A stretch of DNA of 64,000 nucleotides from Tribonema minus (lineage: Eukaryota > Sar > Xanthophyceae > Tribonematales > Tribonemataceae). Where the stretch lies: NCBI GenBank assembly GCA_017506865.1, contig JAFCMP010000547.1:1054001-1118000 (forward strand), in the 5' to 3' direction. The notes under the pieces are model-generated. The model was given only the letters and a program-made list of their open reading frames with translations. It did no database searches and was not told the DNA's origin. Made by a program: the position numbers and the translations under genes. Below are positions 18,991 through 63,240 of the stretch, one piece after another; within the stretch, counting starts at the first letter, position 1; each line of letters starts with the position of its first letter.

Positions 18991-21900
18991 TCATTCGGTG
19001 CCGATGTCCGCAGCGGACACGTTGGCGGCGCCGCCGACGCCGCTGCTGACGCTGACGTTGCCGCCGAGGCTGAGCCCCGTGCGCTCGAGCTGGACGAGGT
19101 CGAGTACCTGGCGCAGGTTGCCGGAGGACAGGAGCCACTCGGTGAAGCGCCCGCGCACCGCCTCTTCGAGCTCGCGCTGCTGCCGCGGGAACAGGTCCGA
19201 CTGCTGCACCAGCTGCGCAGCGCGGATGAGGCAGGGGGGCAGTAGAGTGAGGACTTGCGCGCGCTTTGACGTCGCGTGTGAAGCTTGCGCTGTTGCTGCG
19301 TGAGCAGATCTGAGCGCTGCACGCGAAATGGACCCTTTTGAGGTCGCGCTGCTGCCGCGGGAATAGGTCCGACTGCTGCACCAGCTGCGCGGCACGCGCG
19401 GCAGGTTGAAACAGGGGTGAGCCTCACGTGCATTGTTGGCGTCACACAGCAGCAGCACACTTCCTGTTTCAGCCTGCACTATTGATGATCGATTTTTAAG
19501 AGATTATAGTGTGTACAGCGTGACTTGAGCGCCCGCGCACCGCCTCCTCGAGCCCCCGCTGCTGCCGCGGGAACAGGTCCGACTGCTGCACCAGCTGCGC
19601 AGCGCGGTCGCCGAAACGGGGGGACATGTGAGTGAGGACTTGTTTGCTTTGACGTCGCATGTAGCATTCGCTCGCGGTCTGTTCTTACACTGTTGCTGTA
19701 TGAGCAGGTCTGAGCGCTGCACACGAAATGGACCCTTTTGAGATCGCGCTGCTGCCGCGGGAACAGGTCCGACTGCTGCACCAGCTGCGCAGCGCGGCCG
19801 CCGAAACAGGAGGGCATCGGAGTGAGGGCTTGCGCGCTTTGACGCTGCGTGTGGCACCCGCTCACAGTGTGTTCCAGCTTGCGCTGCTGCAACGCAGCGC
19901 AATGTCAGAACACAACCCTCTGGCTTATAGAATGCCCAGGCTGCTGGCACGACAGTCCGTGCACCAGGTGGCTCAAAGCTGCCAGAGTGACAGTCATAGC
20001 TAGAATCTCAACAGCGCTCAGGTTCGCGACCTTTACAAGAATACAAAGGTTCCGATTCAGCCGTGTCCCCACAGTATGCCTGAACTCAAGGCGCCCAACA
20101 AGGTGGAAGGCTCCAACATAGAACCGAAACCACAGTGTACGTCAGTAAACCAATATCAGGATGACTCCTCACAAGTGCGACATCAAAACAGCATGATGCT
20201 GCCATGCACAATGATCAACAAGGCAAGCACCTTGTGGCCACACTCGCAAGGTTGTCAACAGCCAGGCTTCACCGAATTCACGCTCAGAGAGCTGTCGACA
20301 AGAATCAAGAGCTGTCGACAAGAATCAAGACACTACGCACACCTGTTCGAGCTGCGCCAGCTGCGCCTCGCGCTCGCGCAGCGCCGCCGCGTACTCCGCC
20401 GGCAGCGGAAACGGGTTCACGGCAGCAGCGCCCCCCTGCGCCCCCCCCTCACCAGGGTTAGCACAGTTAGGGTTACTGCCCTCCTCCGCCTCATTGCTCC
20501 GCGGCGCCGGCACCGTGATGCAGTGGAACGCGTCCGGAGGCATCAGCGACACGCTGGAGTTGCCGCCGCCGGCGCCGCCGCCGCTGCCGCCGCTGCTGCC
20601 GGCGGCGTGCGGGAACTCCTCGTTCGCCAGCGCCGCTGCACGCGGCGACATGGCGACGCGCGGCGATGCTGCTGCCGCGGCTGCGCTGTTGGCGCCGCCG
20701 CCGCTGCCGCCGCCGCCGCCGCGCACCGGCGCGGCGACCGGGGCGTTGAGGTCGAGGGGGTAGCACCACATGTTGCGCGGCGGCGGCGGCGGCGGCGCGG
20801 CCTGTGAGACCGGGGGGGCTGCGGGGGGGGCGCCTGAGGGACGAGGGGGGGTGGGGGGGTGGGGGGGTGGGGGTGTAAGCAATGTGGGGCGTTAATGGCG
20901 CTGGAGTGTTGGCTGAGGTATGCATGCAATCGCTGCAACGCATGGCAGAACGCATAGCAGGCCGTGAAGCAAGGCTCTGGCAGTGGACACAAACTGAAAG
21001 TCAACTGGAGACAAGCCGAGACGGCAGCGGTCTCACCTCGCGGCGGCAGCAGCAGGTCGCACGCGAGCCGCTGCCGCAGGCACAGGTACGCAGCTCTGCT
21101 GACCGTATACTACACGACAAGAGTGTGAGTGTGACCTTCAGAAACTTCTCGTACCTACAGTCAGCACCAGATTTCGAACGAAGACACAGGGCGGCGGCGG
21201 CGGCTTAGGGTTAACCCTAACCCTAACCTAACCCGCTCACCTCACAGCGCCAGCAGGTCGCACGCGGCGAGGTAGCGCCAAAGGCGCAGGTACGCGGCTC
21301 TGCTGTACCATTATACACATCGACTAAAATGAAATACGTGTGCAGCCTCCAGCTACTTCTAACACCTGAAATCAACACCAAACTTCAAGCGGCGCGGCGG
21401 CGGCGGCGCTGACCTCGCGGCGGCGGCAGCAGGTCGCACACGGCGAGGTGCCGCCGCAGGCGCGGGTACGCGGCTCCGCTGTACATATATACAAGTACAC
21501 AAAAAGAGTATGTGTGCGGCCCTCGGTATCTTCTGGTACTTTGAACACCCAACTTCAACTGGTGACAAGGGCGGCAGCGCTCACCTCGCGGCGGCGGCAG
21601 CAGGTCGCACGCGGCGAGGTGGCGCCGCAGGCGCGGGTACGCGGCGGCGTTGTACGGCGCGACGTGGCACGCGCGCGTGTCGCCGCAGAACAGCGGGCGC
21701 GCGGGCGTGTACGCGTGCAGCGCGCACTCGCAGCAGTTGACGGCGCACACGCGCCGCGCCGCCGCGACGAGCGTGACGCGCGCGCAGTCCTCGACGCGCA
21801 GCGCGCCGCGCACGGCGCCGACGACGATCGTGCAGTCCGTGCAGCTGCGATTGTGTGCGTGTGACAGCAAGGGAGAAGGGGGGTGAGTGTGCATGCACAC

Positions 21901-24900
21901 TTGATAGCGTGCCGCGCTGCGATGGCACGCGTTTCGGTGCGACGGCGGGGGAGGAGGAGAAGATAATAAGTATGCGCGCTTTGTAGCGCGTGGCGAACAA
22001 TGCTGACTGCAGTTGAAGTCGGGATGCGCAGAGCGCCACGCACGGCGCCGACGACGATCGTGCAGTCCGTGCAGCTGCGATTGGGTGGGGCCGGGGGGGG
22101 GGGGGGGGGGGGGGGGGAATGAGTTTTAGTACACGCATATTGTAGGCGCCGACTGCAAGCAGCTGCGATGGCGCACGTGCGGGTGCGACGGGGTGGGGGG
22201 GGGGAGGGGTGTGAGCGCGCGCACTGGGTAGAGTGCGGCGCACGACGCTGACCACAACTTGAGGTCAGAATGCGCAGCTGCGGTTGCGCGTGTGGGCGAG
22301 GAGGGAGTGGGGGGTAGCAGGGGAAATGGGTGAGTGCGCTCAGCGCACGTTGGCGGCCGCTGTTGTGAAGGGCGTGCAGCTGCGCAAGGTGCGTGTGTGT
22401 GGGGCGGCAGGGGGGGCATTGAGCGCGGGGACGTGGGGGCGCACGGGCACAGCGGTACTGCTGCTGGCAGGTTCTACGGAGGGGCATGCGATGCATGGAA
22501 ATAGCGCCAGAATTGTTGGCAGTGATGACGAGTATGACGCGTGGTTTGGGGGGGGGGGGGGGGGGCAGTCCTTGAGGTTATGTTCAGTGTGATGCCACAA
22601 CGCTCAGCGCTTCGTCGGCTTCCCTTCGCGCGTGGTCCGCACACCCACCATGCAGCTGTGTGCATGCGAGCAGTCAATGACATAACTTCAGTCGCCTGCG
22701 TTCATCGCTTCAGTTCGCTCTGTACGCATGAGTGGCAGGCGATGACTCTCCCACTATTAGCGCGCCCAGTATTACTAGCTCAAGCAGGGGAACCCCTATA
22801 GCGCTACTGACCTGGCGTTGACCGGCCTGCTGCTGCAGCGCCACGCCAATACCTTGCTTCTAAACCTTCAACACAGAAATTTTTGCACCAAGCTTCATGT
22901 GCCACAGCTGCACAAGACGCGGCCACGCACCGCCGCCGTGTGGCCAGGCCGCAGCAGCTCAATACTTGAAGTCCGACGTACTTCACGTCATGACTCGCCC
23001 CACAATCATCGCAGGCGCCAGCACCATACAGGACATCCTTCAAGTTGTGATTCATCCCATGCACGTGTCATACTTCACTTTAAGGTACTGCAAGAAGTGA
23101 CTCGCCCACGATCGTCGCGTGCCGCAGCGGCGCGAGCACGTCTAGGTACGACTCATGGCACCGGCTGACCTGCAGCTGGAGCGCCGCCGCCGCTCTCAAC
23201 ACTTGAAGTCAGACATACTTCAAGTTGAGACTCACCCCACAATCATCGCGTGCCGCAGCGGCGCCACCAAGCACAGGACGTACTTAACCTTGAGAGTTGC
23301 TACTTCAGGTATATATTACTTCTTGATATACTTCGAAGTACATCAAGTTTGTGACCCACACCCACCCCGACCGTCGCGTGCCGCAGCAGCTCAATACTTG
23401 AAGTCAGGCATACTTCAAGTTGTGACTCACCCCACGATCGTCGCGTGCCGCAGCGGCGCCAGCACGTACATGTACGACTCGTGGCACTGGTTGATCTGCA
23501 GCTGGCGCGCCGCCGCCGCGCCAGCCGCCGCCGCGTGCACGATCGTCGTCTTGTGCGCGCCGTTGATGACCAGCGGCAGCGCTGCGCCGCCGTCCGGCTC
23601 CGCCAGCCGCAGCGGCTTGGAGATGCTGCCCTTGCGCTGCGCTGCTGCGCCGCCGCCGGGGGCGCCCGGCGACAGGAAGTCGTCGTCAAAGGCTGTCGTC
23701 GTTGCGCGCAGGGGGGGGGGGGGGGGAACGCGGCAGAGAAGAGGAGATGCTCAGCAGCGGTCGCGGCGATCGAGAGGTGCTGCGCTTCGCGAGCATTTGC
23801 AGGCGTGCAGCGACACGCGTTGATGTCGTGTGTCAATGTGCTCCTCTCCGACATCGCCATGGACACATGCGCCTGCCGCCGCTCGCCGTCGTTTTTGAAC
23901 GCCGGGGAGGGGGGGGGGCGTGGACGCGGCAAAGAGGAGGAGATGCTCGGCAGCGGTGGCGGCGATCAGACGGTGCTGCGCGCCGTGCATGCGCCTCTGC
24001 AGTGGCAGGCGCTGACCGCATGCGAGGACACATTCATCTCTGATATGCTTCGGGTCCATGGCATATGACCTTGAGGCCCGCCAGAAGTGCGCAACAACAC
24101 CCGTGGCGCAGCGGCTACAGCAGGTAGCGTCGTCGCTTGTGTGCGCAAGCGGCGGTGATACGAGAGACGAGGCTAGTCTGAAGTCGTGCGGTACAGCGGA
24201 GCTCAGGTGTGCTGCGCTGGCACACCGACGCTGCGAGCGCATGCACGACGCGGGAGCGGCGTTCATCGGCGTGCATGCCAAGCACAGGAGCAACGATACA
24301 ATGCACTGCAAGACCGCAACAGCAGAGCTCAAGTGTTGCGCAGCAGCAGGCAGCGGCGGCGCTCACCGGCGTGCGTGCCGAGCACGGCGTCCGCGACGGA
24401 CAGCGACGGCGCCGCCGGCTGCGGCGGCGCCGCGTGCGCGTCCGCGAGCGCCTGCGCCGCCGGCGACGGCGGCACCGGGTACAGCACGTCGTTCACCGTC
24501 AGCGCCGCCGCGACCCACTCGCACACCTCGCCCCACGACCCTGCCGCCGCGTCCGCGTCCGCCGCCGCCGCCTCCGCTGCCGCCGCCGCGGCCGCCGCCG
24601 GTGCCGCCGCCGTGCCCGCCTGCACGTGCCGCAGCGCACACAGGTCCGCCAGGTCCCAGGGTCCGGGATCGTCGAGTGCATGGCCGCCTGCTATGAGGAA
24701 GCCGAGGGAGGAGAGGTCGCCGCGGGTGGCGTGCGGCGGCGGCGGCGGCAGCGGCGCGGCGGCGGCGCCGCCGTTGACGGCGGCGGTGCTGCTGCTGCCG
24801 CCGGGCGCGTCGCGGTCCGCAAGGAGGCGCAGCAGCGCGGCGACGTGGCGCCGCACGAAGGCGAGCCGGTGCGCCTGGAGGGGCACGGGGGCGAGGAGAG

Positions 24901-27900
24901 AGCGTTGGCGCTGTTGAGCACTGGGGACGGTAGGTATGTAGGCAGCGCTGACGTGCGTGCGGGGGTCGGCAACAACGTCCATAGTAAGGGCGCTTGAACA
25001 GGCGGGAGGAAGGTGATGATGAGCTGTTCATGGTGCACTGGCACAAAGGCGAGCCGGTGCGCCTGGAGGGGCACGGGGGTGAGGAGAGAGCGTCGGCGCT
25101 ATTGAGCACTGGTGATAGTGACTGTGTGATGCAGCGCAGCAGCAGCAGTGAGGGGTGTCGCGAGGGCGACAGCAGCCGCAACGCGGCGGCGCACAGAGGC
25201 GGGCCAGTGCGCTGAAAGCGACGGGGCGAGTTGAAGTGTTTGTGGTGCTTTGTTCATGGTGCACAGCTGCACTGCCACGCCAGTTGAATATTGCGAGGGC
25301 TAGTGACAGCAATAGTGTACACCAAGAGGCGGTGGTGCTTTTAAAATGCTAGGGGTACGTCACGATGCCACATGTGGTAGCGGAGGCGGTAGCGGCGGCA
25401 GAACGGATGAGCACTGCTGGCAGCTGTGCGCCGGAGGGCAGATGCCGCGCTGATGACGTGGCTATTGGGGAGATTGCCCGCTCATCTCTGTCCTCTTTAG
25501 CGCCGCCCTCTGACTGCCCCTGATGATAAATTCTGGCACAGTAGCACGCGACAGAGCATAATGAAGAAGTTCCACTCCTGGCGAGAGCCGCGCCGCGCAT
25601 ACATACTTCGAAGTAGCTGCCTGCAGCTCGGTCCAACACCCCCCTCCCCCCCCCCCCCTCACCCTTCTTGCAAGCACCTCAACGTCCACCCCATGCATCA
25701 CGCATACGGCAGCATACCTCCGGTGCATTAGGCAGATTGAACCCGACTCCGCCGCCAACTCACGGGCAGTGCTTAGGACCGCATCGATCATATCAGCGGC
25801 TGTACAGCGCCGCCCCTCCCCCCCCCCCCCCCCCCCCCTTCCACACACGCACGATATGTGCGCCCCTGCAAGCCCTCGCCACTGCCTCCTCGGTCACACA
25901 TCACCCGCAGCCCCGTCGCGCCTCGCGCATCAGCTCCAGATGATGCCCCGAGAGAGCGGGGCTGACTGGCCCCTTCAGGATCACGCCAACCGCCCCCCAA
26001 GCGGCGCTGCCGCGCCTTGCGTATCAGCTTCAGATGACCCCCAGCAAGAACACGCCTGACCAGCCCCTTCAGGCTCCCCACCCCCCGTCACTACTGGACG
26101 AACCCCCCCCCCCCCCCCCCCCGGCACACTACGAGCAACAACAGCAAGCAGCATCGCTCAACGCCACCACAGCAGCGCTCACCTCGTCCGCGCTGCGCGT
26201 GTGCAGCCGCAGCGAGCGCGAGCGCCGCGGCGACATCGGCCCCCCCGCGCCCCCCCTGCCCCCCCCGCCCCCCCTCCCCCCGCGCCCCCCGCCGCCCCTG
26301 CGCCGAAAAACACGCCCGTCCTTCCGCCAGGGGAGTGCGGCATGCCGTGTCGTGCGGCGCCGTGCCGCGTTGGCGAGTGCAGACCGTTGCGCGGGGAGTG
26401 CGCGGCGGCGCTGCGCGGGCTCGGCGCGTCTTCCGACGGCCACACGCTGCAGCAGAGAGGGGGGGTTTGAGAGGCGTCGCAAGTGCGTTTGGTCAGAGGT
26501 GATGTCATTTGGTAACATGGCCTCTTGGAGATGGAGATGTCTGCCTGAACGACAGGCTTGATTGGCGGCATCCGAGGGCCCCACGCTGCAGCAGTGGGGG
26601 GATGGGGGAGGGTCATATGAGGTGCGCCGCCAGCAAGGTTATGGATGCTACGAGCCTGCCGTTGGGCGCCAGCCAGTTTACGGACGCTGAAACCGCCTGT
26701 CGTTGGGGGCGAGCCACTGTGCAGGCATGCGCAGAGTGAGCACGCTTGCGCGCGCGCACGCAGACAGAGCGTATCTGAAAATAAACGTGAACACCGGCGC
26801 GGCAGCATGCCATGACGGGCGCAAAGCACGTATGAGTTCAGTATGCGGTACTGTACCTACGTACCTATCCGCGTGCAACCGTGCCGCCGACGCGGGCGCC
26901 TTCTGCACCAGCGCGTCCGGGTGCAGGTGCAGGAACAGGAACAGCAGCAGCGCGGAGATGGGCACCTCCACGGGCTGCAGCATGGCTCAGCAGGCAGGCA
27001 GCAACTTCAAGTCAGCAACTTCATGCCAGTAGCCGGGTGCTGGGCAATGGGCGACATATGTCAGAGTAGCGGTCACGCTAAGGTTTGTTAGGAATTGATG
27101 CAAGTGAGTTCTTTGAAGTTGGCTGCAGCATCAAGCACTCGTCGGCGCTTTCAAAACGCTCACAAAGCTGAAGGAATTGAAAAGCACTGAGCACGCAGGG
27201 TGATCCCAGCACATTCGTGCAGCCAGATCTCAGAACTGACCAGTGCATAGAAGGGCACTGCTCTGCGCTATCAGATGCCAATTGGCGGGCGACATATTAT
27301 GAAGTGGGGCTGGAGAAATGTGTTGAGATCAGTTCTTCTCAGTTGGGCTCACAAAGGCCGTGGGGCCGTGCTGGAGCACTCGTCAGCAACGTGATCTCGC
27401 GTTAAAGCAGGTTGGGACCACGAGCAACACAGAGCGCTGTCGCATTGTGGCCTGCACGCTGCTCAAGTTTCCGCACCGGCATAAGAACACACAGATTATG
27501 TCGGACGCTTCAAAGTGAACGTTCAAAGTGTACACGCGTGGCGACAGGTACTGAACGACAGGTTTGTAGACAGCACGGCGAAGATTTCAGACACCTCTCC
27601 GCGCCATGGGACTGTAGGCCTCTGCTATTCTGGTGCCACATTCAGGACCACTGATGCCGCAGGTTACCCCTCAGTGAAGTGTGTGCAAGCCGCCAGCTAC
27701 TGAATCCTCAACAGCCTGCAGCTCACGGCAACCCCAACTACCCCTGACGCGAACCCCTCGACCTGCTCAGCAGCGTGTCGACTATGATGCTGCCTACTGG
27801 GGTGATGCGCATCGTTCACGCTGGCAACCAGTGGCCTTCTTCGCACGGCGGCACGTCGCAGTGTAACATCTGCTTTGTTCGCCAGGGCAGGGGCTCACAC

Positions 27901-30109: not shown

Positions 30110-32526
30110 ATGGCAAGGCCTTTTGCAGTGGCAGATCCGGAAAGCAGCGGCACACCCAGTCCTGCACCGACCGCCGACGGAGCAGAGCTGCGTCAATCAC
30201 CTCAGCACCAGCACCACCACCACCACCAGCAGCAGCAGCAGCAGCAGCAGCAGGGCAACCCCATCAGCCGCCCTCTGCCTCACAGCAGCCTTCTAGCGCA
30301 AGACAGCGCTCGCAGCTCGGAGGCGGCCTCCCCCGTCCCCACCGCCCAGGGCGGAGCCGGCCTCAGCGAGACGGACGCCGACTCCCGCGCGGAAGGAGAC
30401 TACCCCCCCCCCGTGCGCACCAAGGGCGACCGCCAGCGCAAGCGCAGGCCCCCCGCGGACGACGGCAGCGGCGGCAAGAAAGGGGGGGGCAAGAAGCGGC
30501 GCGGGCCGGGGGGGCGCGCGGGCGGGCTGCTCGCGGAGAAGGTCGCGGCGTGGGAGCCCCCGGGGGTGGCGCTGTCGCGGACGGACTGCGCGCCGCAGCT
30601 GATGCTCAGCAAGGACCAGCTCACAGTGACGGGGGAGAAGGGGTTCAGGATGGTGCGCGCGACGGCGGGCGCGAGCGAGGGCGCGTGGTACTTCGAGGTG
30701 CTCGTGCTGCCGCCGGCGCGCGCGGACGGGCACGTGCGCATCGGCTGGTCTACCGGCGCCGGTGACCTGCAGGTATGTATGTACACGTGTACAATAAGTG
30801 ACATATACATAGAGTCTGCGGCGGCTTGGTTGCTGTGTGGAATTCAGACCTGCGTTGCCAGACGTGCGGTGCAATGCGCGATGTTGAAGTTGCTGCAGGG
30901 GTACCTTGCGAGCGCCATGCTGCCAAGCGCTGCGTAGACAACACCCACCTCTAGAAGGCGATGCCTTTGTGCATGAAACAGTTGACCATCAACGCTGTGC
31001 ACAAAGTCTGTGTGCAATTCACATGCGCACCGTAATCTCCAAAGATGACGCTTGTGAAACGTGCGCGTCAGGCCGCCGCGCCGGTGCATCAACGCACCGC
31101 GACTGCAGCGGACCCCCTTCTCTCATGCACAACCTCCATGCCCTATACCACGCGCCTGCCTTACCTGCCATGCGCCCACATCGCTCACACATACGCATTG
31201 CGTTGCGCGCGCCAGGCGCCCGTCGGCTACGACCGCCACTCGTACGCGTACCGCGACCTCGCGGGCTCACGCGTGCACGCGTCGCTGCGCCATGCGTCTG
31301 CCTCACTTTTCATGCGTCCACATCACCCACACACACGCAAACGCGCATTGCGCCACGCGCGCAGGCGCCCGTCGGCTACGACCGCCACTCGTACGCGTAC
31401 CGCGACCTCGCGGGGTCGCGCGTGCACGCGTCGCTGCGCCACGACGGCTACGGCGCGCCGTACGGCCCGGGCGACGTCGTAGGCGCGCAGATCGTGCTCG
31501 CAGGCCCTTCCGACCCTAGCGGCGCGCCCACCAGCGCCATCCGCTTCTTCGTGAACGGCGTGGATCAGGGCGTCGCGTACACCGCGCTCGCGCCCGCGGC
31601 GTACCTGCCGGCGGTCTCGCTGTACATGGGCGCGCGCGTGCGCGTCAACTTCGGGCCGCGCTTCGTGTGCGCGCCGCCGCCGCTGCGCGCGGAGGAGTCA
31701 CACGATGCGCCGCCGCGGCCGCCGCGCGCGATTGCGGAGCTGCGGCCGATGGCGGCGGACGCGCTGGAGGCGCAGGCGGCGTGGGCGCGGCAGCAGCGCG
31801 CGGAGCGCGAGGAGGTGCGCACGTGGCGTATGCACGCAGCGCTTGAATGCGCTTGCCTCAGTGGACATTGTGCGTGGCGACCAGCGAATGTTATTCCCTG
31901 GAACGGAGCGTATGCACTGCGGTTGGATATGTTATCGACTAGCAAGTTGACTCTGTGTGCATGGGCATCGGCGAATGGTGTTGCGCTGGACCGTAGTGTA
32001 CGCACAGCAGTTGGAGATGTACTTGACTACGAAGTTGGCTCTGTGTTAATGGGCACCGGCGAATGGTGTTGCCCTGGAGCGCAGCGTACGTGCAGCGGCT
32101 GAATGCGCTTGACTATGAAGTCGACGCTGTGTGAATGGGCATCAGCAAATTCTGTTGCCCCGGAGCGCTCAGCGTACACAGCGCTGTAGATAGCACCATG
32201 TATGAAGTTGCCATTGACAGTGTAAAGCGCAGCTGCCGTGTCGGTTCGCCATTGCACTGAGATCCCTACGACGCAGGATGGCTATGCTCGCTAGACTTGC
32301 ATCGCGGCAACTGGGCCTCTGCGGGCAGGCAAGCGATGGCGGTCGATGACGACGGATGTGCTGACCATGTCGACGTCATCGTGTGCTGACAATGTTGCAG
32401 GCGCTCAAACAAAAAGCTAGCGGAGAGGAAGGCATCGGCAGCGCAATCAAAACGGAGAGCGTCAAGGTGGAAAGGGCGGCGGCGCAGGGCGGCAAGGACA
32501 GGGGGGTAAAGCGTGAGGGGAGCTGA
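30110..32526 (+). CDS. ASH2: ASH2-like SPRY subunit of COMPASS/SET1 H3K4 methyltransferase
   Basis: Three exons, all phase 0: 30110-30772, 31365-31814, 32401-32526; 412 residues. The SPRY core matches ASH2L closely: CAPQLMLSKDQLTVTGEKGF, then MVRATAGASEGAWYFEV, IGWSTGAGDLQAPVGYDRHS, YGAPYGPGDVVGAQI, IRFFVNGVDQGVAYTAL and YLPAVSLYMGARVRVNFGPR. ASH2 with WDR5, RBBP5 and DPY30 activates SET1/MLL-type H3K4 methyltransferases in the nucleus. The N terminus here is disordered, with His and Gln tracts (HHHHH, then nine Q) and a basic KKGGGKKRRGPGG patch. No PHD finger or winged helix is visible, unlike animal ASH2L. The last exon is a short basic tail. It is divergent from TBCCD1. Confidence 0.93.
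31213..31291 (+). repeat. extra copy of the ASH2 exon 2 head with acceptor
   Basis: The bases around CGCCAG-GCGCCCGTCGGCTACGACC, about 77 bases of exon 2, are repeated almost perfectly upstream of the true exon (31363-31440). The intron before each copy is also related, giving a unit of about 150 bases. The copy has an acceptor but no matching donor. Confidence 0.9.
31840..32200. repeat. about 100-bp imperfect tandem repeat in ASH2 intron 2
   Basis: Roughly four units repeat GGGCA-C-GCGAATGGTGTTGC, a GAGCG-AGCGTA element and TTGACTA-GAAGT. Units have drifted. Confidence 0.7.
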
Positions 32527-33600: not shown

Positions 33601-33609
33601 GGCAAAATC

Positions 33610-34030: not shown

Positions 34031-34157
34031 TCGGTTTTTGCAGTGGTGCCAAAGCAGCGGAGTCCTGGGTTGTAGACCCAAACCCGGGATTGTGTGCGGC
34101 TGAGCAACGCGCTGCTGTACATCGCGCTTGACTTTGAGGGGCGCATACAAAAAAATT

Positions 34158-35009: not shown

Positions 35010-38000
35010 ATGAGGGATTACGAGCAGGGTCAGCTGAGCGGCGAGGCCGTCCCGGCACAGGCGACGCAGTATGGAGCGCTGCCCGTGGACGTGGATGTTA
35101 TCGAGGAGATGCCCCCACGCAACTCCCTCCGCAACCGGAGGGCCAAGGTGGCTGCCGCTGGCGCCCTGGCGGCTCTGCTCATTGTGGGCCTGATGAATGT
35201 GGCGGTGCCCTCGTCGAACGCCACATCCCCGGTGATGGTGGCACCCGTGGCGCTCAGCGAGGAGGGAGATGTGATGTTCTGCCTGCAGTCTGGCTGCAGC
35301 AAAGTGGTGAGTGTGTGCTGACTGACGGTGCATTTTCTCAGTGCGCAAGAACATACCATAGTGCTTGTCCCATAATTACCGCTGCGAATGACGCCTTGAG
35401 TGTTGTCGCCCTCCTTGTTCGAGTTGGCAAGCTGTGTGCTTGCGCCAGCGGATATTTAGGCTCTGAGGCAGTTGGGATTGCCAGACATGCCACAGGCGCA
35501 CAACAAGCGCGGTTAACGGTGTGCAATGTGCCGCTTCAGCACTGCAGCCTACTTAACCTCGTTGCTGGATCACAGGTTATGCCCCATCAAGTTGCTTTCC
35601 AGAATATCGCTAATTATCGCTGAATCCGGGGTCTCCATGCGAGGGAGATGCACTATGGCTGGAATGCAATTGCAACTTTGTATGACTGCTCGAACAGCAG
35701 CTGATCCGGAGTTACACCACGAAAGTCACGAGCAACCTGCCTGTTGCTGCCGTGTTTCAACCGAAATGCTTCAGCGAAGACCCCGAGCTCGCATAGTCTG
35801 TGTAGTCAGTGTATGACATGCACCATGTACGCCTGTAACACCCAGGGCTGACGTGGTTCGAATATCAAACATTTACATGACAAGCCTCAATGGTTAACCG
35901 CAAATTAAAATCCTTGCCGTCAAGTTCAAAGTACATTTCAACGCCAACAGCATGCACTACTTTCTGCAGAACTGATCGCTAGTTAGCTGCAGCGATACAG
36001 CAACAGTTTCGACAGTTGGACTACCTTCTGCCGATTTGCAGCCACCGGTACGAGCGCCAGTGCGGCCAATTTGAAATGTAACGGCAGTAGAATTCATTCA
36101 GATGCTACATGCACAGACCTGGGCGCTTGCGCACAAATTACAAAAGCTCAAGGTTGAGTGCCTAGGCTGGTGATGATTGTCGCCAAATCACCGCGAGGTG
36201 AATGGTGGCACCGATCCTTGCGCAGGCAGATATGCAACTTGCGTTCTGTACCTTTCATGCAAAGGGGGGCATGGGTGAAGTCTTTTGGAAGCGCCACACC
36301 TGTTGCGGTGCCTTCGTACGTGAAGCGAGCCCACAAGCAAATGTGTCAGGGGCGTTGCTGCTTTTCTTGGAGGGGGGGAGGCATTCACATGCTGACCACT
36401 ACGATTTGCTCAATCGATGCTCACGCGTCCATGTCCAACAGCTGTATGTAGTACTTTCTTAGCATTAATACGGCTCACAATTGCGACCAACATATTCACA
36501 TGCGCTCAAGCATATGCGACTGAGCACCGGTCACACAGCCGGCAAGCTCATGTTGAGCAATGCTGGCTTTGCGCAAAAGGCACCCTCACCCTGTCGCTAT
36601 GCGTGTGAACACTTATACGCATCGCGTCAACGTGCTGCTGTTGAACAGCGCCAACCTCAACAGAGCACTTTCACAAATGCCGCGGCTCTCCAATAATGCA
36701 GCAATTGACAGGATACAGTGCGTGACGTTTGACCGATGCCAGCAAGTTGTCTGCAGCGACTGTACCTCAACCTCTCCTCACGAACACTCTTTCATTTTAT
36801 GTCATGATGCGATCGTTCTCAGGTGGGCGAGCTGATGATGAACGGCGCCAACCCCACTGTGCGCGCCCTGTCCGACTGCCTGGACGATGCCGGAGCCGAC
36901 AAGGCCCTCGGCGGCAAGTGCCTTGCGCCCCCCGCCGTGGACGACCCCTTCCGGTGAGCACCGATGTTGTGTGGACCCTTCCCTGTACAACAGTCTTTTT
37001 CTGGTGAGCACTGCTGTAGTCCGAGAGCTGCTTTAAGTGCCCTTTTCGCCCTAGACACCCCTCTCCTGCGAGCAACACCCCTCTTCTGCGAGCACTGCTG
37101 TAATGTGGTCGCTGAGCACTGCTGCAAGTGCCCCCCTCGCCCTCAAGTCCCCTCTCCGGTGAGCACTGCTGTTGTGTCATTGCCGAGCGCTGCTGCAAGC
37201 GCCCCCCTCGCCCAGGACGATGACGCGCAGCCTGCTGCTTCAGTGTTGTTGCATGTGGTGTAGTAGCTGAGCGCTGATGCAAGAGAGGTTGCGCCCCCCC
37301 CCGTAACCCTAGATGTTGCACCCCCCCCGTAACCCTAGATGTCTGGCTTTGGCGAGCACTGCTGTAGCGTGGTCGCTGAATGCTGCTTGCTGCAAGCGAC
37401 CCCCTCGCCCTAAGACACTCCTCTCCGGCAAGCACTTATGTAGTGTGTGGACGCCGAGCGCTGCTGTGAGCGCACCTCGCCCAGGACAACAACGACGCAC
37501 GCCCCGGTGCGTTGAGCGCTGCTGCACATGTGACGCATCAGCTGAGCGCTGATGCGATAGAGAGGAGACCCCCTTGTAGCCCTAGATGTCTCGCGCCGGC
37601 GAGCACTGCTGTATCGTGATCGCTGAGCGCTGCTGTAAGCGCCTTGTCGCCCTGGACGACCCACTGCACTGAGCACTGTTGTTGCGTGATTGCCGAGCGC
37701 TGCTGTAAGTGGTGAGCGCCAACTTCAACTTTGAGCAACGGACGTGGCTCCGGCATAGATGGTGGCTGTGCGCTGGTTGGCAGCATCGCATGGCTGCGCG
37801 GCTCTATGCTGAGCGCTGCCTGAACCTCTGCATATGGCTGTAACTGCACCAGACATGCGTTCAACCGGATCGTTGCCGGACAGCGTCAAACTCAGTGCTG
37901 TTCATACATCAGACCAGACCGCCCTCACTCATCGCTGAGCGCATGCGTGTTTCGCCGCTGTGCCCGCGCAGCAAGGAGAAGATGAACCTGCGCGTGTGCG

Positions 38001-44300: not shown

Positions 44301-46387
44301 CCTAGTAGCTCGCTGACTGATGCAGTGTGACCAAGCTTGGCATGCAGTAATCGCCTTGCCGTACGAGGACGTAACTTTTGCAGGAAGGGGTTGATTCTTG
44401 TCAAAAGTTGAAGTTGGTGATCTGGCATGTTCACCTTGTTTCTGAAGTAGTTGGGCGCTGATGGCGCCTCTCCAGGCTGACGGATTGTTTGGCGCTTGTG
44501 TCCGCGCATCACTGTTCTTGTGCGGTTAGGAGTACGGTGATATGCAGGCCCAAAGTAGCTTGTTGGTTCGTACAGTACTTGGTCCGAGCTTCCCAGCTTG
44601 GGTGTGTAGAGGGTCGGTACATGATGCTTTCAAGGCCCTGCACTCGCCATCACTCGACCACAGTTATGTCTTAAGGTGCGTACGTTGTCCGAGCTTTCTA
44701 TCTAGCGTATGCAGGTCATCCGCAGCCCGCAAGGTGCTCAAGGACCTGCGCTCGCCATCGGTCGATTACAGTTAGGATACGTGGCCACCTGCCTGTTCGT
44801 CTTGCCGTAACTGCGTCGCTCATTGCATCTGGGCCGCGGAATTCCTTTTTCTGCGCTGACAGGGCGGCGGCCAGGAGACCACTGCGCTCACGTGGGTCAC
44901 ACAGCTCACGCACCACGGCATGATCTTTGTGCCCCTGGGCTACACCACGCCGCTGCTGTTCAACATGGACGAGGTGAGGTGTCGTTTCAGCTTGCTACTT
45001 CAACATTGAAGTATTGTATCATCCTAGCTTATGCACCACGGCATGATCTTTGTGCCCCTGGGCTACACCACGCCGCTGCTGTTCAACATGGACGAGGTGA
45101 GGTGTTGTACGCTCGTGCAAACTGTCAGTGTTGGAACGCTCGTGCAAACTGCTACTTCAACTTTGAAGTATCATTGCTCGTGGAGTAGCGTCTAGTTGAC
45201 GCACCACGGCATGATCTTTGTGCCCCTGGGCTACACCACGCCGCTGCTGTTCAACATGGATGAGGTGAGGTGATGCGCGCTCGTGCAGTTTGCTACTTCA
45301 ACATTGATGTATTGGTACATCGGCATTGAGGTAGCTCGTGGGTTGGGTGCTGGTCTTTTGTCTCAGCGCGCTTTTTAAAGGGCGAGCGAAGTGCAGTTCA
45401 GGCATGCTTGGGCTTGGGTCTTGGCTAACTCCAGTCCTGATGCGCAGAGTCATGCCCAATGTCCTAAATGAGTACATATATGAAGCTCGTTTAAGAATGT
45501 CAAGTAGCCGCTGCCCTGAGCGACGCAGCCTGTCGAGCGCAAACACATGCTTTGCAGGGCATTCTAGCATGCGTCCACACCGAAATCACCTACGCAGCGC
45601 AACGGCTCACTCCGCGTGTGCAGCGTGCGCGTCGCCAATATCGTCAGCGACTGTGCCTCATTGGCTCGTGCAGTGCTTTCACACAGGTCCTCACCGCCTT
45701 TTGCGCGTGTCTTGCACCTGCTGCTGCTGCTCTCTCCTGCGCAGGTGCACGGCGGCTCTCCCTATGGCGCAGGTGCGTCAACTTGAAGTTTTTTGCTTGC
45801 AGTTTGCAGTCAGGATCTGCATCCCCCCCCACCAATTGTGCTGGGATGGACTGTGGCTATTGTCTGTCGCCACCGCTGCTGAAGACTGCCGCAGCGGTCG
45901 ATGCCTTCACACGGCAATCGAAAAGAGTGGAAATGCTTTTGCACAAAGTCCGGAAGTCATCCACAGATGCACTTCGTGACCGATCGGTAAGATCATTCCC
46001 AGGTTTCGGCCCCCAACATCTGACACTGCTGAGCTCGCTGCTTGTGCAAGCAAGGCAATATGGCACACGCGCAAGACCTTTTGGCCCGGCCCTGACTCGC
46101 ATCACAGATGAGCATTGCCGCACCTGCAGAAACCGCAATTCATTTGAAACCCCGGAAATGTCAAAACCTTTCCTTCTTGTGAGTGAGCCTCTGAGCTAGT
46201 GACAAAGGCATGCAAATGACTAGACGCTGACGATGCGCTGCTGCTCGCTGCCACCACCCCCCGTGCAGGCACCTTTGCCGGCCCCGACGGCTCGCGCCAG
46301 CCCACGCAGCTCGAGAAGGACGTCGCCAAGCACCAGGGCACGTACTTTGCGGGCGTTGTCACCGCCCTCAAGAACGGCAAGGCGTAG
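41382..46387 (+). CDS. wrbA: WrbA-type NAD(P)H:quinone oxidoreductase
   Basis: Seven exons with agreeing phases: 41382-41421, 42302-42413, 43617-43767, 44233-44286, 44863-44973, 45745-45772, 46269-46387; 204 residues, the usual family length. Flavodoxin fold: [12 protein letters not shown] with the FMN phosphate loop, [14 protein letters not shown], then [72 protein letters not shown] and [20 protein letters not shown] follow. It reduces quinones by two electrons with FMN, limiting semiquinone formation, normally in the cytosol or at membranes. Introns 2, 3 and 5 hold copies of neighbouring exon edges. Exon 6 is only 28 bases. Confidence 0.95.
42511..43040 (+). repeat. four tandem copies of the WrbA exon 2 tail and donor
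   Basis: Copies at about 42511-42578, 42671-42738, 42841-42905 and 42990-43040 follow the true exon end (42358-42418) with a period near 160 bases. Each keeps GAGCTGCTGTC-GA and the AAGATGTGA donor region. The intron part is also repeated (TTTGAGAAATGTGAATCTTC). Identity falls with distance from the exon. Confidence 0.92.
43834..44142 (+). repeat. decayed copies of the WrbA exon 3 tail and donor
   Basis: Copies at about 43834-43898, 43920-43973, 44038-44066 and 44091-44142 echo GACTCCACCGGCTCGCTCTG and the GGTATGTATG donor of exon 3 (43718-43775). Confidence 0.8.
45023..45274 (+). repeat. two near-perfect copies of the WrbA exon 5 3' two-thirds
   Basis: The last 69 bases of exon 5 plus GTGAGG recur at about 45029-45103 and 45199-45271 with one to three differences. 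Each copy is preceded by CTAG and followed by GTGAGG. Read from that AG they are open for 23 codons in phase 0 ([20 protein letters not shown] and [20 protein letters not shown], then MDE). Confidence 0.93.
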
Positions 46388-48463: not shown

Positions 48464-48720
48464 GATTTCAACGGCGCCAGGAACCGTGTGAGGTGTCCCA
48501 GAGATCCACGCCGAGCTCACCAGGCGATTGATGTCCTGTTAGGATCGCTGCTCCTTCCTCTTCCCTCGCTTCAACGCTCGATATACAGTCAACTATCGAT
48601 GATAAGCGGTGATTCTCAGCAAATCCTTTTGTTTGTTGGTGCAAACGCTGTTCTCTTGCCATAGGCGAGGAGGCGCGTCGGTGAGCGTGGGGGCAGTGAA
48701 CAGGAGTTGTAGCTAGATCG
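48464..48720. promoter_or_regulatory. 257-bp divergent intergenic region of TMEM258 and KH gene
   Basis: The two ATGs (48463 minus, 48721 plus) point away from each other. Control sequences and both 5' leaders must fit here unless leaders are spliced. No specific motif is claimed. Confidence 0.5.
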
Positions 48721-51700: not shown

Positions 51701-54041
51701 GCCGTCAGCCAGACGATCGTCGTGCCGAACGACCGCGTAGGGCTCATCATCGGCAAGGGGGGGAACAACGTGCGCAACCTGCAGCTACGCACGGGCGCGC
51801 AGATCAAGATACCGCCGGGCCCCGATGCCGGGGACCCGGAGCGGCGCACGTTGACCGTCGTGGCCGCGAGCCGCGGCGCCGTGGATGCTGCGCTCGCGGA
51901 GCTGACGACGCTCGCGGCCGCGGGCCCTCCGCCGGTACGTTTCGTTTGACTGCATTAAGCACACTGTTTTGTACGACTTTAGTCACTCCAATTAGTATGA
52001 CGCGCTCGCGATGCTCGCGGCGGCGGGCTCACCGCCAGTGAATATGTGGAGGGCGCGCTGTTCGGTATGACTTCAGTTAGTATGACTTCACTGTTCAGTG
52101 CGACCTCACTGTATAGTGCGACTTCAGTTGGTATGACGCGCTCGCGGAGCTCACGGCGCGCTCGCTGCGGCGGGCCCTCCGCCGGTACGTAACGTTTGCG
52201 GCTACCCATCCCTTGTCACCTAGAGCTGTACAATCTTTCGATTCGCCTCCACGTACCGTTTGAGTTTTGTGTGAAGGGTGCGCTGTTCAGTACGACTTCG
52301 GTTGTTGTGACGCCGTGGCGGGAGCTCTGCTAGCGCGTAGATCTGCATTCATGGAGAGCACTGTTCGGTATGACTTGTGTTGGCATGACAGACCAGCTTG
52401 CGACGGCGCCACAGAGTATGTGTTTTGTCTCTATACTTTTGTGCGGTGATGCTGGAGAGTGGCATTTGAGTGTTGACGGCATATATATGAGGCACGCGAA
52501 GTGTCGGCGGCAATTATGCGAGGCACGCATCGCCGACTCCACGCTAAAGTGCGCCCCTCCCCCACCCGCCGCGCGCGACCAAACAGGGCCCCGGCAGCGG
52601 CGGCGGCGGCCCCACGCTCACCATGTCGATCCCCGCGGAGCGCGTCGGGCTCGTGCTCGGCAAGGGCGGCGCTACGGTCAAGGACATCCAGGCGCGCACG
52701 GGCGCGACCGTTCGCATCGACATACCGCAGCCGGGGGACCCCGCGGCGCTCGCGCCCAACAGGAGCGTCAGCATCCACGGGCCGATGGACGGCGCGCGCC
52801 GCGCGCAGTGGGAGATCGACCAGATGCTCGCGCTCGGCCGCGAGGTGCCAGGAGGGAACTACGAGGAGGTGATGGGGGGCGGGGGCGGGGCGGCGGCGGC
52901 GAGCTACGCGGGCCCCGGGCTCGTGGACCCGTACCGCAACCAGTACGCGCAGCCGCCGCCGCAGCCGCAGGCGCCGCCGCAGCAGCAGCAGCAGGCGCCG
53001 CCGCAGCAGCCGCCGCAGCAGCAGCAGTACCCGCAGCAGGGGGGGTACCCGCCGCAGCAGCAGGGGTACGGAGGGCAGGGCGGCTACCAGCAGCCGCCGG
53101 CGCAGGGGCCGCCGCAGCAGCAGTATGGCGCGCCGCCGCAGCAGCAGGGGTATGGGCAGGGCCCGCCGCCGCAGCAGCAGCAGCCCCTGCAGCAGCAGCA
53201 GCCGCCCCCCCAGCAGTACCCCCCTCAGCAGCAGCAGCAGCAGCAGCAGTACCCCCCGCAGCAGCAGTACGCCCAGCCCGCGCAGCAGCAGGCGCCGCCT
53301 CAGCAGCAGCAGCAGCAGTACAACGGCGGCGGGTACGCGCCCCAGGCGCCGCAGGCGTTCGGCGGCGGCGGCGCGCCCATGCAGCAGCAGGCGCCGCCGC
53401 AGCAGCAGCCCCCGCAGGCGTACGGCGCGCCGCAGCAGCCGCAGCAGCAGTACGCGCCGCCGCCGCAGCAGGCCTACAGCGGCGCGCCTGCGCAGCAGCC
53501 GCAGCAGCAGCCGCCCTACAGCCCGCAGCAGCAGCAGCCGCAGCCGCAGTACGGGTACCAGCAGCCGGCTCCGGCAGCGGCGCCGCAGGCCGCCGCCCCG
53601 CCGCAGCAGCAGTACGGCATGCAGCAGCCGCCGCAGCAGGCGGCGTTCGGCGGCGCGCCTCCGCAGGCGCAGCAGGCCCCTCCGCAGCAGTACCCGCAGC
53701 AGGCCCCGCCGCAGCAGGCGCCGCCCCAGCAGCAGCAGCAGCAGTACTACAACCAGCAGCAGGCGGCGCCGCAGCAGGCTCCGCCGCAGCAGCAGCAGCA
53801 GGCCCCGCAGCAGCAGCAGCAGTCGTACGCGCAGGCCGCGCAGCGCACCGCCGCCGCGCCCGCGCCCGCCGCCGCTGGTGGCGCGGACCCCACGCAGTAC
53901 TACCAGCAGTTCTGGCAGTATGCCGCGTACTATGGAGAGCGCGTTGCACGCGAGCAGTATGGTGCGTGGTCGCCGCCGCCGGGCACTGCGCCGCCCCCGG
54001 GGATCACCATCCCGCCCCCCGGGCAGGAGCACCGCGCGTAA
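48721..54041 (+). CDS. five-KH-domain RNA-binding protein, FUBP/KSRP-like, with Gln/Pro-rich tail
   Basis: Three exons, all phase 0: 48721-49809, 51485-51934, 52587-54041; 997 residues. KH1 (about 51-131) and KH2 (147-228) have SF1/branchpoint-protein-like loops (LLGPKGSTLHALQDKSGAK; LIGPKGTTLRAMQEKSGAK with IRGKGSSKD). A Met/Pro/Gly linker follows. KH3 (329-405, split by intron 1), KH4 (439-510) and KH5 (524-594) have GxxG loops VVGKGGANIQ, IIGKGGNNVR and VLGKGGATVK, as in FUBP/KSRP. Residues about 600-950 are Gln/Pro/Ala/Tyr repeats encoded by CAG/CCG, prion-like. The end, YYQQFWQYAAYYGE...YGAWSPPPG, recalls the Tyr-rich tail of FUBPs. It likely binds single-stranded RNA or DNA in the nucleus for splicing, mRNA stability or transcription. 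Confidence 0.9.
49810..51484 (+). other. intron 1 of the KH gene
   Basis: It contains a TTAGGG-like patch at about 49970-49989. A 28-base element, GTGTACTCATCAACAGT with flanks, occurs twice (about 50217 and 50404). An 87-base tandem duplication at about 51310-51440 repeats GTACCAGCTGCC-TTGACTG and GAAGGC-ACGCTCAC. Long C-runs precede the exon 2 acceptor. Confidence 0.7.
51990..52335 (+). repeat. decayed copies of the KH gene exon 2 tail and donor
   Basis: GACGCGCTCGCG...GCGGCGGGC(T/C)C...CCGCC at about 52000-52040 and 52133-52200 copies the exon 2 tail (51890-51940). The second keeps CGGGCCCTCCGCCGGTACGT almost intact. A weaker echo lies at about 52305-52335. TATGACTTCAGTT elements separate the copies. 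Confidence 0.82.
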
Positions 54042-58750: not shown

Positions 58751-58929
58751 GATAGCATCAACTGTAATAATTGGCAACACGGCACAGGTGGGCTGCACCG
58801 TGCTTCGCAATGTCTCGGCACCGAGCGTCATGCATTCGCCGCGATCTGCTTTTGAATAGGATCACACAAATCGCACTGCTCACTGTTTTGCCTGCAAGGC
58901 AGTGCACAACACGCGACGTTGTTGCCGTG

Positions 58930-59600: not shown

Positions 59601-59617
59601 GCTGCTAGCTGCTCTGC

Positions 59618-59895
59618 CGCGACAGAGAGGCACGCCACATATGCCCGCGCGCGGTGCAGCAGGAGCGACTGAGCACTTGTTGACGCAGACCCGACTGACG
59701 CGTTGCGGTGATCTGAAGTGCCAGGGTCGGGCTGCTGATCACTTGCTGCGCGTCACAGAGGGGCACGCCACGTACGCCCCCCGCAACACGCGCGGTGCAG
59801 TAGGTGCGACTAGGCACTCAGTGACGCAGACCGACTGGCGCGCTGCGGCGATCTAAAGTGTCGGGGTCAGGCTGCTGAGCAGTGCTGCGCGTCAC
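59618..59895. repeat. about 134-bp tandem duplication overlapping the SH2-gene 3' end
   Basis: The unit GACAGAG-GGCACGCCAC-TA, then CGCGCGGTGCAG, then GACGCAGACC and GTC-GGCTGCTGA occurs at about 59620-59752 and 59755-59893. Its last bases abut the stop codon of the SH2 gene. Confidence 0.8.
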
Positions 59896-62800
59896 AGCAG
59901 GTCCACGCCGCCAGCGAACTCCGAGCCGACGTCCCAGCTCGGAAGGACGCCCTGAGAAGACGTGAAGGGCGCCCACACCTGCTCCTTGGGGTAGGTACAG
60001 CCGTCGCGCGCCGCTACCCAGCGCAACTGCTGGCAGCTCATGAGGAGGTCTCCCTGCGCAGCGGCGTGGCGAGCGAGCAGCAGTTTGTGAACAGTTTGGT
60101 TTGAGTGGGCTCAGTATGCAGTCGTGACTGCCTGTGCGGGATGGGGCGTACAGCAAGGTTAGCGAGCAGCTGTCAGTTGACGTTCCAACTCGTTTAACCT
60201 CAGTGTGCAGTTGCAAGCGGCCCTTGCAGGATGAGGCGTACAGCAAGGTCAGCAGGCAGCTGTCAGTGGACGCTTCAGTTCGAGTGTGCTCGGTATGCAG
60301 TTGCACGCTGCCCTTCCCTTGCAGGATGTGTATGCCCTGAGCAAGTTGTTGCCCATCCCACGGGTGGCCGCAGGAGTAGCGATGGCCAGCCGTCGCATTG
60401 AGCAAACGTAATTTGCAACAACATGAACATGCGTGCGCACTTTGCCTCTAACAAGAGGAACTATCAGTCACCAGTCAGGCATACAAGATCATGCCACGCA
60501 GGCTCATGGAGCGACAGCCTCAGGCCTGCAATGTCTTACTGTGACAAATGTACTTAAACTCACGTTACGTACTTGACTTCGGATAATCTGCCGTCGCACA
60601 TCGTACGCGCGTGTTGCGCGTAGGAGAGGACGCCACCTTGCCGATGAAGTACCACTCACCAGCTGAAGGTCACAATTTCAAAAGTACGTACTTCACCTTT
60701 GAAGTACCACTCACCAGGCATGCGTAGTCGCGCCGCACCGTCTCGCCGCTGCCGCTGCCGCCGCCCTCCGTGTCCGGCAGCGCGATACTGCAGTTGCCGT
60801 GCCGCAAAACCTGCGGCGCAATGCCAGCAGAAGCCATGTAGATGCACTGAGTATGAGAGTAATGAGAGCCATCGTGTATTGCTAATCGCTGACTACAAGG
60901 ATAAATAGGGTCCGCATGTATTGCTGAGCGGTCTGCTGGGATTCGGCTGCCGTGCTGCAGGGCCTGCTGCACAGACGCGTGCAAGTCCTTCCCCCCTCCC
61001 CCCCCGGTGTCACTCTGTTGCTTGAACTCTTAGTGCGCGACATGCATATCTGCAGATGCCGTGACGCAGAACCTGCAGCGAAACATTCATTGAGAATCAT
61101 GTAAATTTATTGAGTATCAGGGTGAGTTGGCGTGCGTTGCTGAGATGCAGCTAGCTGCCGTGCTGGCAGCCCGCTGCAGAGTAAGACCGGAGGTCCCTGC
61201 GAGTCCATTTCATCATGAACTTCCAGTGCGTGACACACCAGTAATTCAAGTGTGGAAGCTTCGAGCCCTCAGGTGGCTCAGCTACATGCGTCACTCTCCA
61301 GTGCATGGCACGTTGACACGCACTGCCATGACGCGTTCATGTGTAATGTCTGCAAGTCGCCCCCCCCCGTTCGTCACTGAGCTACAAAATGCAGGGTCTG
61401 CAAGTGCCGACAGTCTTCATGCAATGTCTTTCAGAGCTAGGCGATGCCTATCTCACGCCAAAACCGAAGGGTGAGGGTCATTTGTGAGCTATGAGATCCT
61501 CCACAAGCATTCCAAGCCGGTCACAGCTGCATGGAGTGTGCAAACTCAACTTTGAACTTGTGCTGTCAGGGACGCAACTGCCGTCCAACGCTTCGCTCAA
61601 GTTCATACATCAGGCTTGGTGCATTGCGCACCACCTATCGCTGGCGTGCACTTGTATGTGACCTTTGCATTCGGGGGTGGGCTGCGCCGGTGTTGAGCAC
61701 TGCTTCGCTTCCCTGTCACCATCACGGGGATGCGCGACCGACGCGAGCGGGGTCACCAGAAACAGCTACGCCCCAGAAATATCTGTAGTAGGGCATCTAC
61801 GCTGTGTCTTCTTGTGCCAGTGGAGCAGGCGTGCGAGACAGGCGCCTCTTCAATGACTCAATGCTGCTATCAGACAATCGTCAGTGGGAAACGCTGCTCA
61901 GGTGCATTTGCGAGGGCTGAGTAAGGCGGCCAGGCACACGGTCTAACCCTAACCCTAACTAATTTAAATAAATAAAAACAAAGGTCCCCGCAGGCTCCTA
62001 CGTAGAATAGGATACACTGGGAAATTGACGTAGACGTACCAGAGTGGAGCCAGAAACAAGCAAAGGTTGTTGTACGCACCTTGACGATGACGTGGAAACA
62101 CCGGCTGACGCCGCCGACAACTCCTGCTGACGAGATCACCAGTGAGTCCGTGTTTTTGCCGTTCAAGCGCAGGATGAATGAGCCGGGTTCGCGCCCCTGC
62201 AGGCGGTCCTCTGCCTGCGCCCTGCGCTCCGCAAGTGCAAGTACAAGTTGAAGTTCAAGTACAAGTTGAAGTGCATGTGCCGCACGCGTTTGCCTGCACT
62301 CGGATCATGAGAGTGAGTAGGTCTGCCTGCGCGATACTCAAGTGCCAGTGTAGGTTCAACTTGAAGTGCACGAGCACTTGCGCTTGTGTGTGCAGGTATA
62401 GAGTATTGAGCGAGTGTGACTCGTGCGTACACAGAACTTGCACCTTGTGGTGAGCGGCACATTTACATCGGCACAGAGCGCTGATGCAAAACAACGCTGG
62501 GGGATATGCAAGGTTTGCAGCTTATAATCCTCACACCTCAATAGGTGGCAGTGCTCATGAGGAGTGACGCACCTGTCGAGAAAACCCTGCAGCAGGACGG
62601 GGCTGCGCGCGTTCCACTGATTGCAAAAACTGCACCCGCACCTGCTCAAACCTCACCAAGGTCTACTCGTACCTGTTCTTGAAGTTTCAAGTTCTAGTGC
62701 TCAGAGGAGGAGTGACGCACCTGTCGAGAAATCCCTGCAGCAGGACGGGGTTGCGCGCGTTCCACTCGTCGCGCAGGCGCCCCAGCGTTGCGAGCGTCGG

Positions 62801-62914
62801 CGCCCAGATGGCTACACAAAAGGCGCCGTACTGCTGCAGCTCCACCGTCGCGTCGGCGCCGACGCTGCCGCCGCCGTCAGAGGAGCGTGCGCAGAGACGT
62901 GAGACAGGTGGCAC
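59892..62914 (-). CDS. STAT-type linker-SH2 domain protein, 3' part
   Basis: Four minus-strand exons join with agreeing phases: about 62864(or 62914)-62721, 62221-62080, 60810-60715 and 60053-59892 (stop). The first seen exon ends RLRDEWNARNPVLLQGFLDR, like the STAT linker. The next gives AQAEDRLQGREPGSFILRLN and RCFHVIVK, an SH2 core with the Arg of the phosphotyrosine pocket (FILRLN). Then VLRHGNCSIALP...RRDYACL and GDLLMSCQQLRWVAARDG followed by CTYPKEQVW, matching the end of STAT SH2 domains. STAT-type linker-SH2 proteins are known from amoebae, plants and algae. Binding of phosphotyrosine is inferred. The 5' end is not resolved and may lie beyond the window. Confidence 0.72.
60105..60330. 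repeat. about 95-bp imperfect tandem repeat in the last SH2-gene intron
   Basis: GCGTACAGCAAGGT-AGC-GCAGCTGTCAGT-GACG followed by a TCAGTGTGCAGTTGC-type element occurs twice, with a third partial copy on each side (about 60105-60330). Confidence 0.75.
61943..61959 (-). repeat. interstitial telomere-type repeat
   Basis: CTAACCCTAACCCTAACT in the SH2-gene intron. Confidence 0.8.
62227..62276. repeat. CAAGTTGAAGT-type short direct repeats
   Basis: AAGTGCAAGTACAAGTTGAA is followed by a second AAGTACAAGTTGAAGTGC, immediately upstream (on minus) of the SH2-core exon acceptor. Confidence 0.8.
62566..62612 (-). repeat. extra copy of the SH2-gene linker-exon tail and donor
   Basis: The plus-strand sequence GTGACGCACCTGTCGAGAAA-CCCTGCAGCAGGACGGGG of the true junction (62712-62755) is repeated about 145 bases away with two or three changes, then stops matching. 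Confidence 0.88.
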
Positions 62915-63240
62915 GTGAGCCGCGAGCGAACTATGTACTTCAAAGTAGTGAACATGTGGGTTGTGCGTTGACGCTAGGTGCCGGTCGTGCGTGCGCCGCC
63001 GGCAGAGCTACACCGTCGCGTCGGCGCCGCCGCGGCCGCCGCCGTCAGAGGAGCGTACGCAGCGGAGATGCGTGGCGTGAGAGCCGTGAGCACATGCAAA
63101 CCATGTGACAAACACATGGGTTGTGCGCTCGTCGTGAGGCATGCGTGCGGCGTGCGTGCGCGTGCCGCCGGTAGAGCTTGGCGGCAGCAGTGGCGCGGCG
63201 CTGCTGCCGCTGCCGCCGGTGCACCCCGCACGGGCACATG
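62830..63240 (-). repeat. tandem copies of the SH2-gene linker-exon head
   Basis: CACCGTCGCGTCGGCGCCG, then CCGCCGTCAGAGGAGCGT (plus strand) occurs at about 62846-62890 and 63010-63057. A weaker CCGCCGGTAGAGCTTGGCGG copy lies near 63165-63240. Period is about 140-165 bases. Confidence 0.78.

Follow-up and report, generated by a model that had tools for sequence, protein, structure and literature searches.

Introns of the yellow-green alga Tribonema minus carry local direct duplications that cross exon-intron borders: in three genes known from deposited proteins and in two predicted ones (KH and Pro/Thr-tail), one end of the repeat lies 21-89 nt within an exon, and the repeat runs through the donor or acceptor into the intron. 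Such junction-crossing copies are real and recurrent, both in the stretch of DNA under study and beyond it, though the former is denser in them. This stretch, hereafter the window, comprises 64,000 nt (C544:1054001-1118000) of a genome of 158.2 Mb in 554 contigs. We regard a general process of local duplication in introns, tolerated across the borders and combined with a longer survival of border-crossing arrays, as the best reading of the data (probability roughly 0.55). In this reading, the introns of T. minus would gather direct duplications of roughly 60-280 bp, either adjacent or with a spacer, and units straddling a splice border by chance would copy the exon edge, the splice site and the intron edge into the intron. 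Such copies would be tolerated because the outermost (original) splice site would still yield the same mRNA, and copies deep within exons are rarer, presumably through selection against them. The copies would then decay nearly neutrally, and the arrays straddling a border would outlast the wholly intronic ones, so that older arrays pile up at borders.

Copies across splice junctions

Three deposited T. minus proteins (P0001, P0121 and P0126) matched the window letter for letter; their alignments, in which GT/GC donors and AG acceptors were obligatory, were completed without mismatch. P0001 bears the name "flagellar associated protein" in its deposited record, and P0126 (SPRY) is partial, with 180 aa encoded by 2 exons. 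The KH and Pro/Thr-tail gene models are our own ab initio predictions with no deposited protein behind them, and the gene finder fuses genes and may take border copies for exons. The original prediction had named six genes with copies across their borders, and five of them were recovered, three by a deposited protein and two by prediction only (Table 1). The sixth, an SH2 gene, is poorly modelled: its Pfam SH2 match reached 15.8 bits versus a cut-off of 21 bits. Elsewhere in the window, an open frame with a DnaJ domain was found at 16561-18189 (E 3.4e-9), and a 147-nt segment (CLVYRCGKQRIDRF.CLEH) has a second copy at an offset of 402 inside an open frame (2939-3487).

Table 1. Genes and border-crossing repeats in the window (window coordinates)
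Feature	Coordinates	Strand	Basis
TBCC-domain (TBCCD1-like) gene, P0121	18994..29607	-	857/857 residues mapped, 13 exons; TBCC E=9.8e-21
Acceptor and exon-head copies preceding last exon, 67 nt exon overlap	19146..19874	-	self-comparison, junction probe, array test
Three border copies taken as exons in P0121: 19334-19384, 19541-19594, 19734-19784 (51, 54, 51 nt)	19334..19784	-	protein mapping, mismatch test
Array across donor, intron 7, 71 nt exon; includes copy read as exon 21414-21473	21001..21655	-	self-comparison, protein mapping, array test
Array across acceptor, intron 6, 52 nt exon	21793..22277	-	self-comparison, array test
Array across donor, intron 6, exon part up to 89 nt	22948..23519	-	self-comparison, junction probe, array test
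Acceptor and 22 nt exon head, copy 188 nt off, 93% identical, intron 4	24853..25115	-	self-comparison, junction probe
Short repeat across acceptor, intron 2, 21 nt exon, offset 139, 37-nt alignment	26426..26601	-	array test
ASH2/SPRY gene, part covered by P0126 (exons 30563-30772, 31365-31694)	30563..31694	+	protein mapping, Pfam
Acceptor and 77 nt exon head, duplicated, offset 142 (ASH2/SPRY)	31148..31441	+	self-comparison, array test
Array starting 43 nt inside predicted exon, Pro/Thr-tail gene	36911..37709	+	array test; predicted model
WrbA-like (flavodoxin-fold) gene, P0001	41382..46384	+	204/204 residues mapped, 7 exons, six introns
Array, intron 2: last 70 nt of exon 2, donor and intron head, several copies, offset ~159 (WrbA-like)	42344..43039	+	self-comparison, array test
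Diverged array, intron 3, starting 49 nt within exon 3 (WrbA-like)	43719..44192	+	array test
Array, intron 5: last 71 nt of exon 5, donor and intron head (WrbA-like)	44903..45314	+	self-comparison, junction probe, array test
Repeat across donor, 45 nt exon, KH gene	51890..52198	+	self-comparison, junction probe, array test; predicted model, Pfam KH domains
Repeats (62550-62766 and 62838-63218) either side of predicted exon 62721-62864, SH2-like gene	62550..63218	-	self-comparison and gene prediction

Self-comparison of the window with the low-complexity filter on yielded 45 pairs of repeats, each 40 nt or longer, all direct and at offsets of 70-572. Over 25 sequences (296,769 nt), 155 local repeat pairs were direct and 3 inverted. 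A local direct repeat spans 9 of the 28 junctions of the deposited window genes (4/14 donors and 5/14 acceptors), counted without the four copy exons of P0121 discussed below and two junctions of a 17-nt exon. Junctions were likewise spanned in the KH and Pro/Thr predictions (2/8) and outside the window, where kinase-centred stretches of 10 kb (n=22) gave 13 spanned junctions out of 163 predicted ones; these stretches constitute a non-random sample with mostly predicted introns. When 80-nt probes over the junctions were used, copies were found in the adjoining intron at 22 of 179 junctions but at 0 of 179 with shuffled introns; thus, the junction copies exceed chance. Outside the window alone, 12 of 124 probes had copies, and the recurrence of tandem copies across exon-intron borders, as originally claimed, is therefore confirmed within and beyond the window. 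With the genes of the paralogs (see below) included, a nearby copy was detected for 24 of 200 splice junctions (7/28 in the deposited window genes, 1/16 in the deposited paralogs outside, and 16/156 in predicted genes including KH and Pro/Thr). Similar copies span stop codons (3/34, two of them in deposited genes) and predicted start codons (3/34), the positions of the latter being uncertain. Rows with exons shorter than 25 nt (40 nt in the junction-probe, position, overlap/period and mismatch tests) or introns shorter than 100 nt (200 nt in the mismatch test) were excluded, as were exons covered by repeats to 90% (junction counts and coverage) or 80% (array tests).

The fundamental periods were broad, with 94 of 116 rows in the range of 60-200 (with some arrays counted once per strand) and no sharp peak in the period distribution of the array rows. 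Introns with arrays were longer than the others (median 751, n=41, versus 434, n=73), a difference to which the arrays themselves add. Repeats covered 13.6% of introns, 5.7% of exons and 4.8% of the sequence outside genes. The intron/outside ratio was 2.9 (1.4-4.2), the interval reaching down to 0.99 when the window and L020 were left out, and the "outside" class includes unpredicted genes; we consider the intron specificity of the repeats only suggestive.

Placement, age and decay of the arrays

The original prediction held that duplication is systematically seeded at exon borders. In the position test, copies were found at 18 of 154 junctions and at 115 of 1012 positions in the intron interior (60 nt or more away from any border), with a ratio of 1.03 (95% over genes 0.59-1.51), and at 23 of 384 positions in the exon interior (at least 60 nt inside). 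Copies no more common at borders than inside introns were what the original prediction itself had listed as counting against it. The position test is blind to anchoring because the arrays extend over hundreds of bases. At the level of arrays, 25 of 37 cross a border (23 of 35 omitting a doubtful array in L024), including 11 of 13 in deposited genes. A first null, in which whole spans were placed, was superseded by one that places a single unit in the intron as before expansion, with the arrays detected without exons. With the exons hidden in this way, border crossing was seen for 17 of 33 arrays versus 8.5-9.9 expected (p 0.001-0.0035). The corresponding values were 10/18 outside the window (3.7-4.4 expected), 9/12 in deposited genes (3.8-4.3 expected) and 7/15 in the window only, the last being not significant (4.7-5.4 expected).

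The arrays were further divided into halves at the median value of their best-alignment identity, a split in which age is confounded with copy number. With the exons hidden, 11 of 16 arrays in the older half cross a border (4.6-5.8 expected) versus 6 of 17 (0.35) in the younger half (3.9-4.1 expected), where the excess is not significant. As young arrays are at chance and old ones in excess, longer survival at borders is favored over seeding; the numbers are small, and the old-array excess looks more like survival. Random duplication, decay and deletion were simulated under three settings on a small set of 26 introns free of arrays (median length 381 nt); the fraction of arrays crossing a border was 0.33-0.42 when young and 0.24-0.29 when old. 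The excess among old arrays is beyond the simulated range, and the survival step is thus assumed rather than explained by our reading. The identity was 80.5 for crossing arrays and 84.1 for internal ones (p 0.07).

Duplication seeded at the borders themselves, for instance by R-loops, splicing-coupled breaks or replication stalling at splice sites, would be consistent with the array-level excess in the whole set, with exons hidden and in deposited genes. Nevertheless, we judge seeding to be fairly unlikely, as it fits poorly with the younger half of the arrays, with the lack of any excess at junction positions and with the stop-codon borders that are spanned as well. What stands of the seeding claim is the array-level excess (17/33 versus about 9), whereas neither the positions nor the younger arrays bear it out.

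Repeat coverage amounted to 10-12% at the junction and went down to 0.3-1.5% at 75-100 nt inside the exon. Exons still hold repeats farther in, the coverage recovering to 2-3% in the segment 100-200 nt away from donors and to 3% in that 200-400 nt away from acceptors. The arrays reached slightly less far into exons than a uniform distribution would have them do (mean x/P 0.34 versus 0.44, p 0.025; KS p 0.004; n=20, including one row whose overlap of 254 nt is implausible). The effect is weak, and selection may be behind it.

Between original and copy, 142 of 1674 positions (8.5%) mismatched in the exon part and 270 of 1651 (16.4%) in the intron part; the former value would be expected to be the lower one if only the original exon is constrained, the copy being free. 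Between copies, the mismatch was 97/753 (12.9%) for exon-derived and 141/691 (20.4%) for intron-derived sequence, the exon-derived divergence being below the prediction of plain neutrality. In intron 2 of the WrbA-like gene, the two parts differed alike between copies (33/210 exon-derived versus 31/190 intron-derived). The bases of the splice dinucleotides were retained in 62 of 66 cases (donor G 16/16 and T 14/16; acceptor A 17/17 and G 15/17), and the decoy splice sites in these 16 donor and 17 acceptor copies bear a sign of neither removal nor preservation. Altogether, the copies decay nearly neutrally.

Paralogs and copy exons

P0003 (WrbA-like) and P0122 (TBCC), which are paralogs of P0001 and P0121, respectively, are encoded adjacent to each other on C132. 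The fully mapped P0003 has acceptor-crossing repeats at the fourth and last exons, of which the stop/junction probe detects only the former, and one repeat over the stop codon; the arrays of P0001 cross donors. In P0122 (mapped from residue 67 on), no splice-border array but only a repeat over the stop codon was found, and its introns of 607, 1081 and 718 nt correspond to array-bearing introns of P0121. The location of the arrays at different borders in the paralogs indicates independent origins after the paralogs split. The TBCC and WrbA-like genes occur close together in the window (18994-46384) and adjacent at C132:176902-187872 and on C275; the sharing of this pair is probably due to an old segmental duplication. 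C275 has the same arrays as C132 in the P0003 gene, and the two contigs, 99.97% identical at the WrbA-like paralog and 99.98% in the TBCC part, represent either alleles or a redundant assembly of one locus. Separately, C90 and C179 (L029 and L030) are ~92% identical over 10 kb and ~70% at one end, being diverged alleles or a segmental duplication; a tandem-duplication indel was found in 0 of the 5 gaps of at least 8 nt between them.

The deposited P0121 model contains four copy exons of 51, 54, 51 and 60 nt, which may represent mistakes in the annotation or exons newly gained. Some copies could be functional, if copies of an acceptor and exon head gave rise to putative in-frame exons and new introns, with birth still in progress. 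The four lengths, each divisible by 3, agree with this idea, as do the array of the first three copy exons, in which original and copy mismatch at 8 of 163 positions in the exon part and 25 of 143 in the intron part, and the precedent from potato in the excerpted text of PMC4974935. On the other hand, the motif of each copy exon is present once in P0122, the donor at two copy exons is GTCCAT, unlike the GTGAG consensus from gene prediction, and the exon- and intron-derived parts decay alike in intron 2 of the WrbA-like gene. We hold such exon birth to be distinctly unlikely. Caution is warranted more generally, as copies of a border inside an intron can be annotated as exons, and the deposited TBCCD1 model may be such a case. 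A wider claim, that borders are preferred for duplications to form or to persist, that about 1/8-1/10 of junctions have been self-copied, and that some acceptor copies are now in-frame exons, would imply a recurrent supply of exons and introns; taken as a whole, it seems doubtful to us.

P0122 lacks equivalents of introns 7 (20834-21584) and 5 (23693-24366) of the TBCC gene. These two could be taken for introns that arose when an exon segment containing AGGT was duplicated in tandem, but either gain or loss would leave this pattern. In none of 116 introns did the donor and acceptor contexts show in-register homology, nor did they in the mismatched-pair control (0/116). The kinship to AGGT-duplication intron birth suggested in the original prediction is unsupported for standing introns, and we rate this origin as very improbable. 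That the arrays are an assembly artefact is hardly credible: a perfect 283-nt two-copy tandem duplication (L022:1000-1566) is either very recent or such an artefact, but the mean copy identity is 71-94% in 36 of 37 arrays, too diverged for mis-assembly, and the arrays in the WrbA-like paralog recur on C132 and C275, though these may be one locus assembled redundantly.

Comparison with known systems

No work on intron repeats of T. minus was found among the literature matches listed. Intronic minisatellites are tandem repeats within introns. The T. minus repeats resemble them as local direct repeats with units of about 60-280 bp, but differ in that a repeat end is often located within an exon and in that the copies are few, strongly decayed and in part spaced. 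Among 14 repeat pairs with at least 88% identity over at least 60 nt, the copies adjoined or overlapped in 7 (gaps from -18 to 7) and were spaced by 59-194 nt in the other 7. Introner elements are repeated DNA associated with introns, and intronic elements in dinoflagellates are reportedly the subject of a paper. The T. minus repeats are tied to introns as well, but they copy their own locus: 45 of the 45 listed window pairs are at most 600 nt apart, and no sequence family shared by many introns was found within the window.

In the Rogers/Hellsten model, as summarized in the excerpt of PMC4974935, introns are gained by AGGT tandem duplication. This model and the T. minus case have in common a tandem genomic duplication in genes that leaves the protein unaltered. 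In contrast to the model as given there, the T. minus duplicates cross an existing border, and the donor and acceptor contexts are non-homologous.

The closest case is the RdRp gene of potato, in which a boundary-crossing tandem duplication made a new intron (Ma, Lan and Niu 2016, PMC4974935). The duplicated unit, according to the excerpt, consisted of the 3' part of an intron together with the 5' part of the exon that follows, and copies with an acceptor and exon head are found in T. minus as well. A unit spanning an exon-intron border was present at 9 of the 28 deposited-gene junctions, and a spliced intron between copies is implied only by the deposited P0121 model. While the excerpt describes one potato case with a new intron, the T. 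minus duplications concern several genes, include copies of the donor type and are known from DNA alone. The T. minus duplications are events of the kind described in potato, but recurrent in one genome. If boundary-crossing duplication recurs in this way, its rate, the survival of the copies and the outcome for splicing become measurable.
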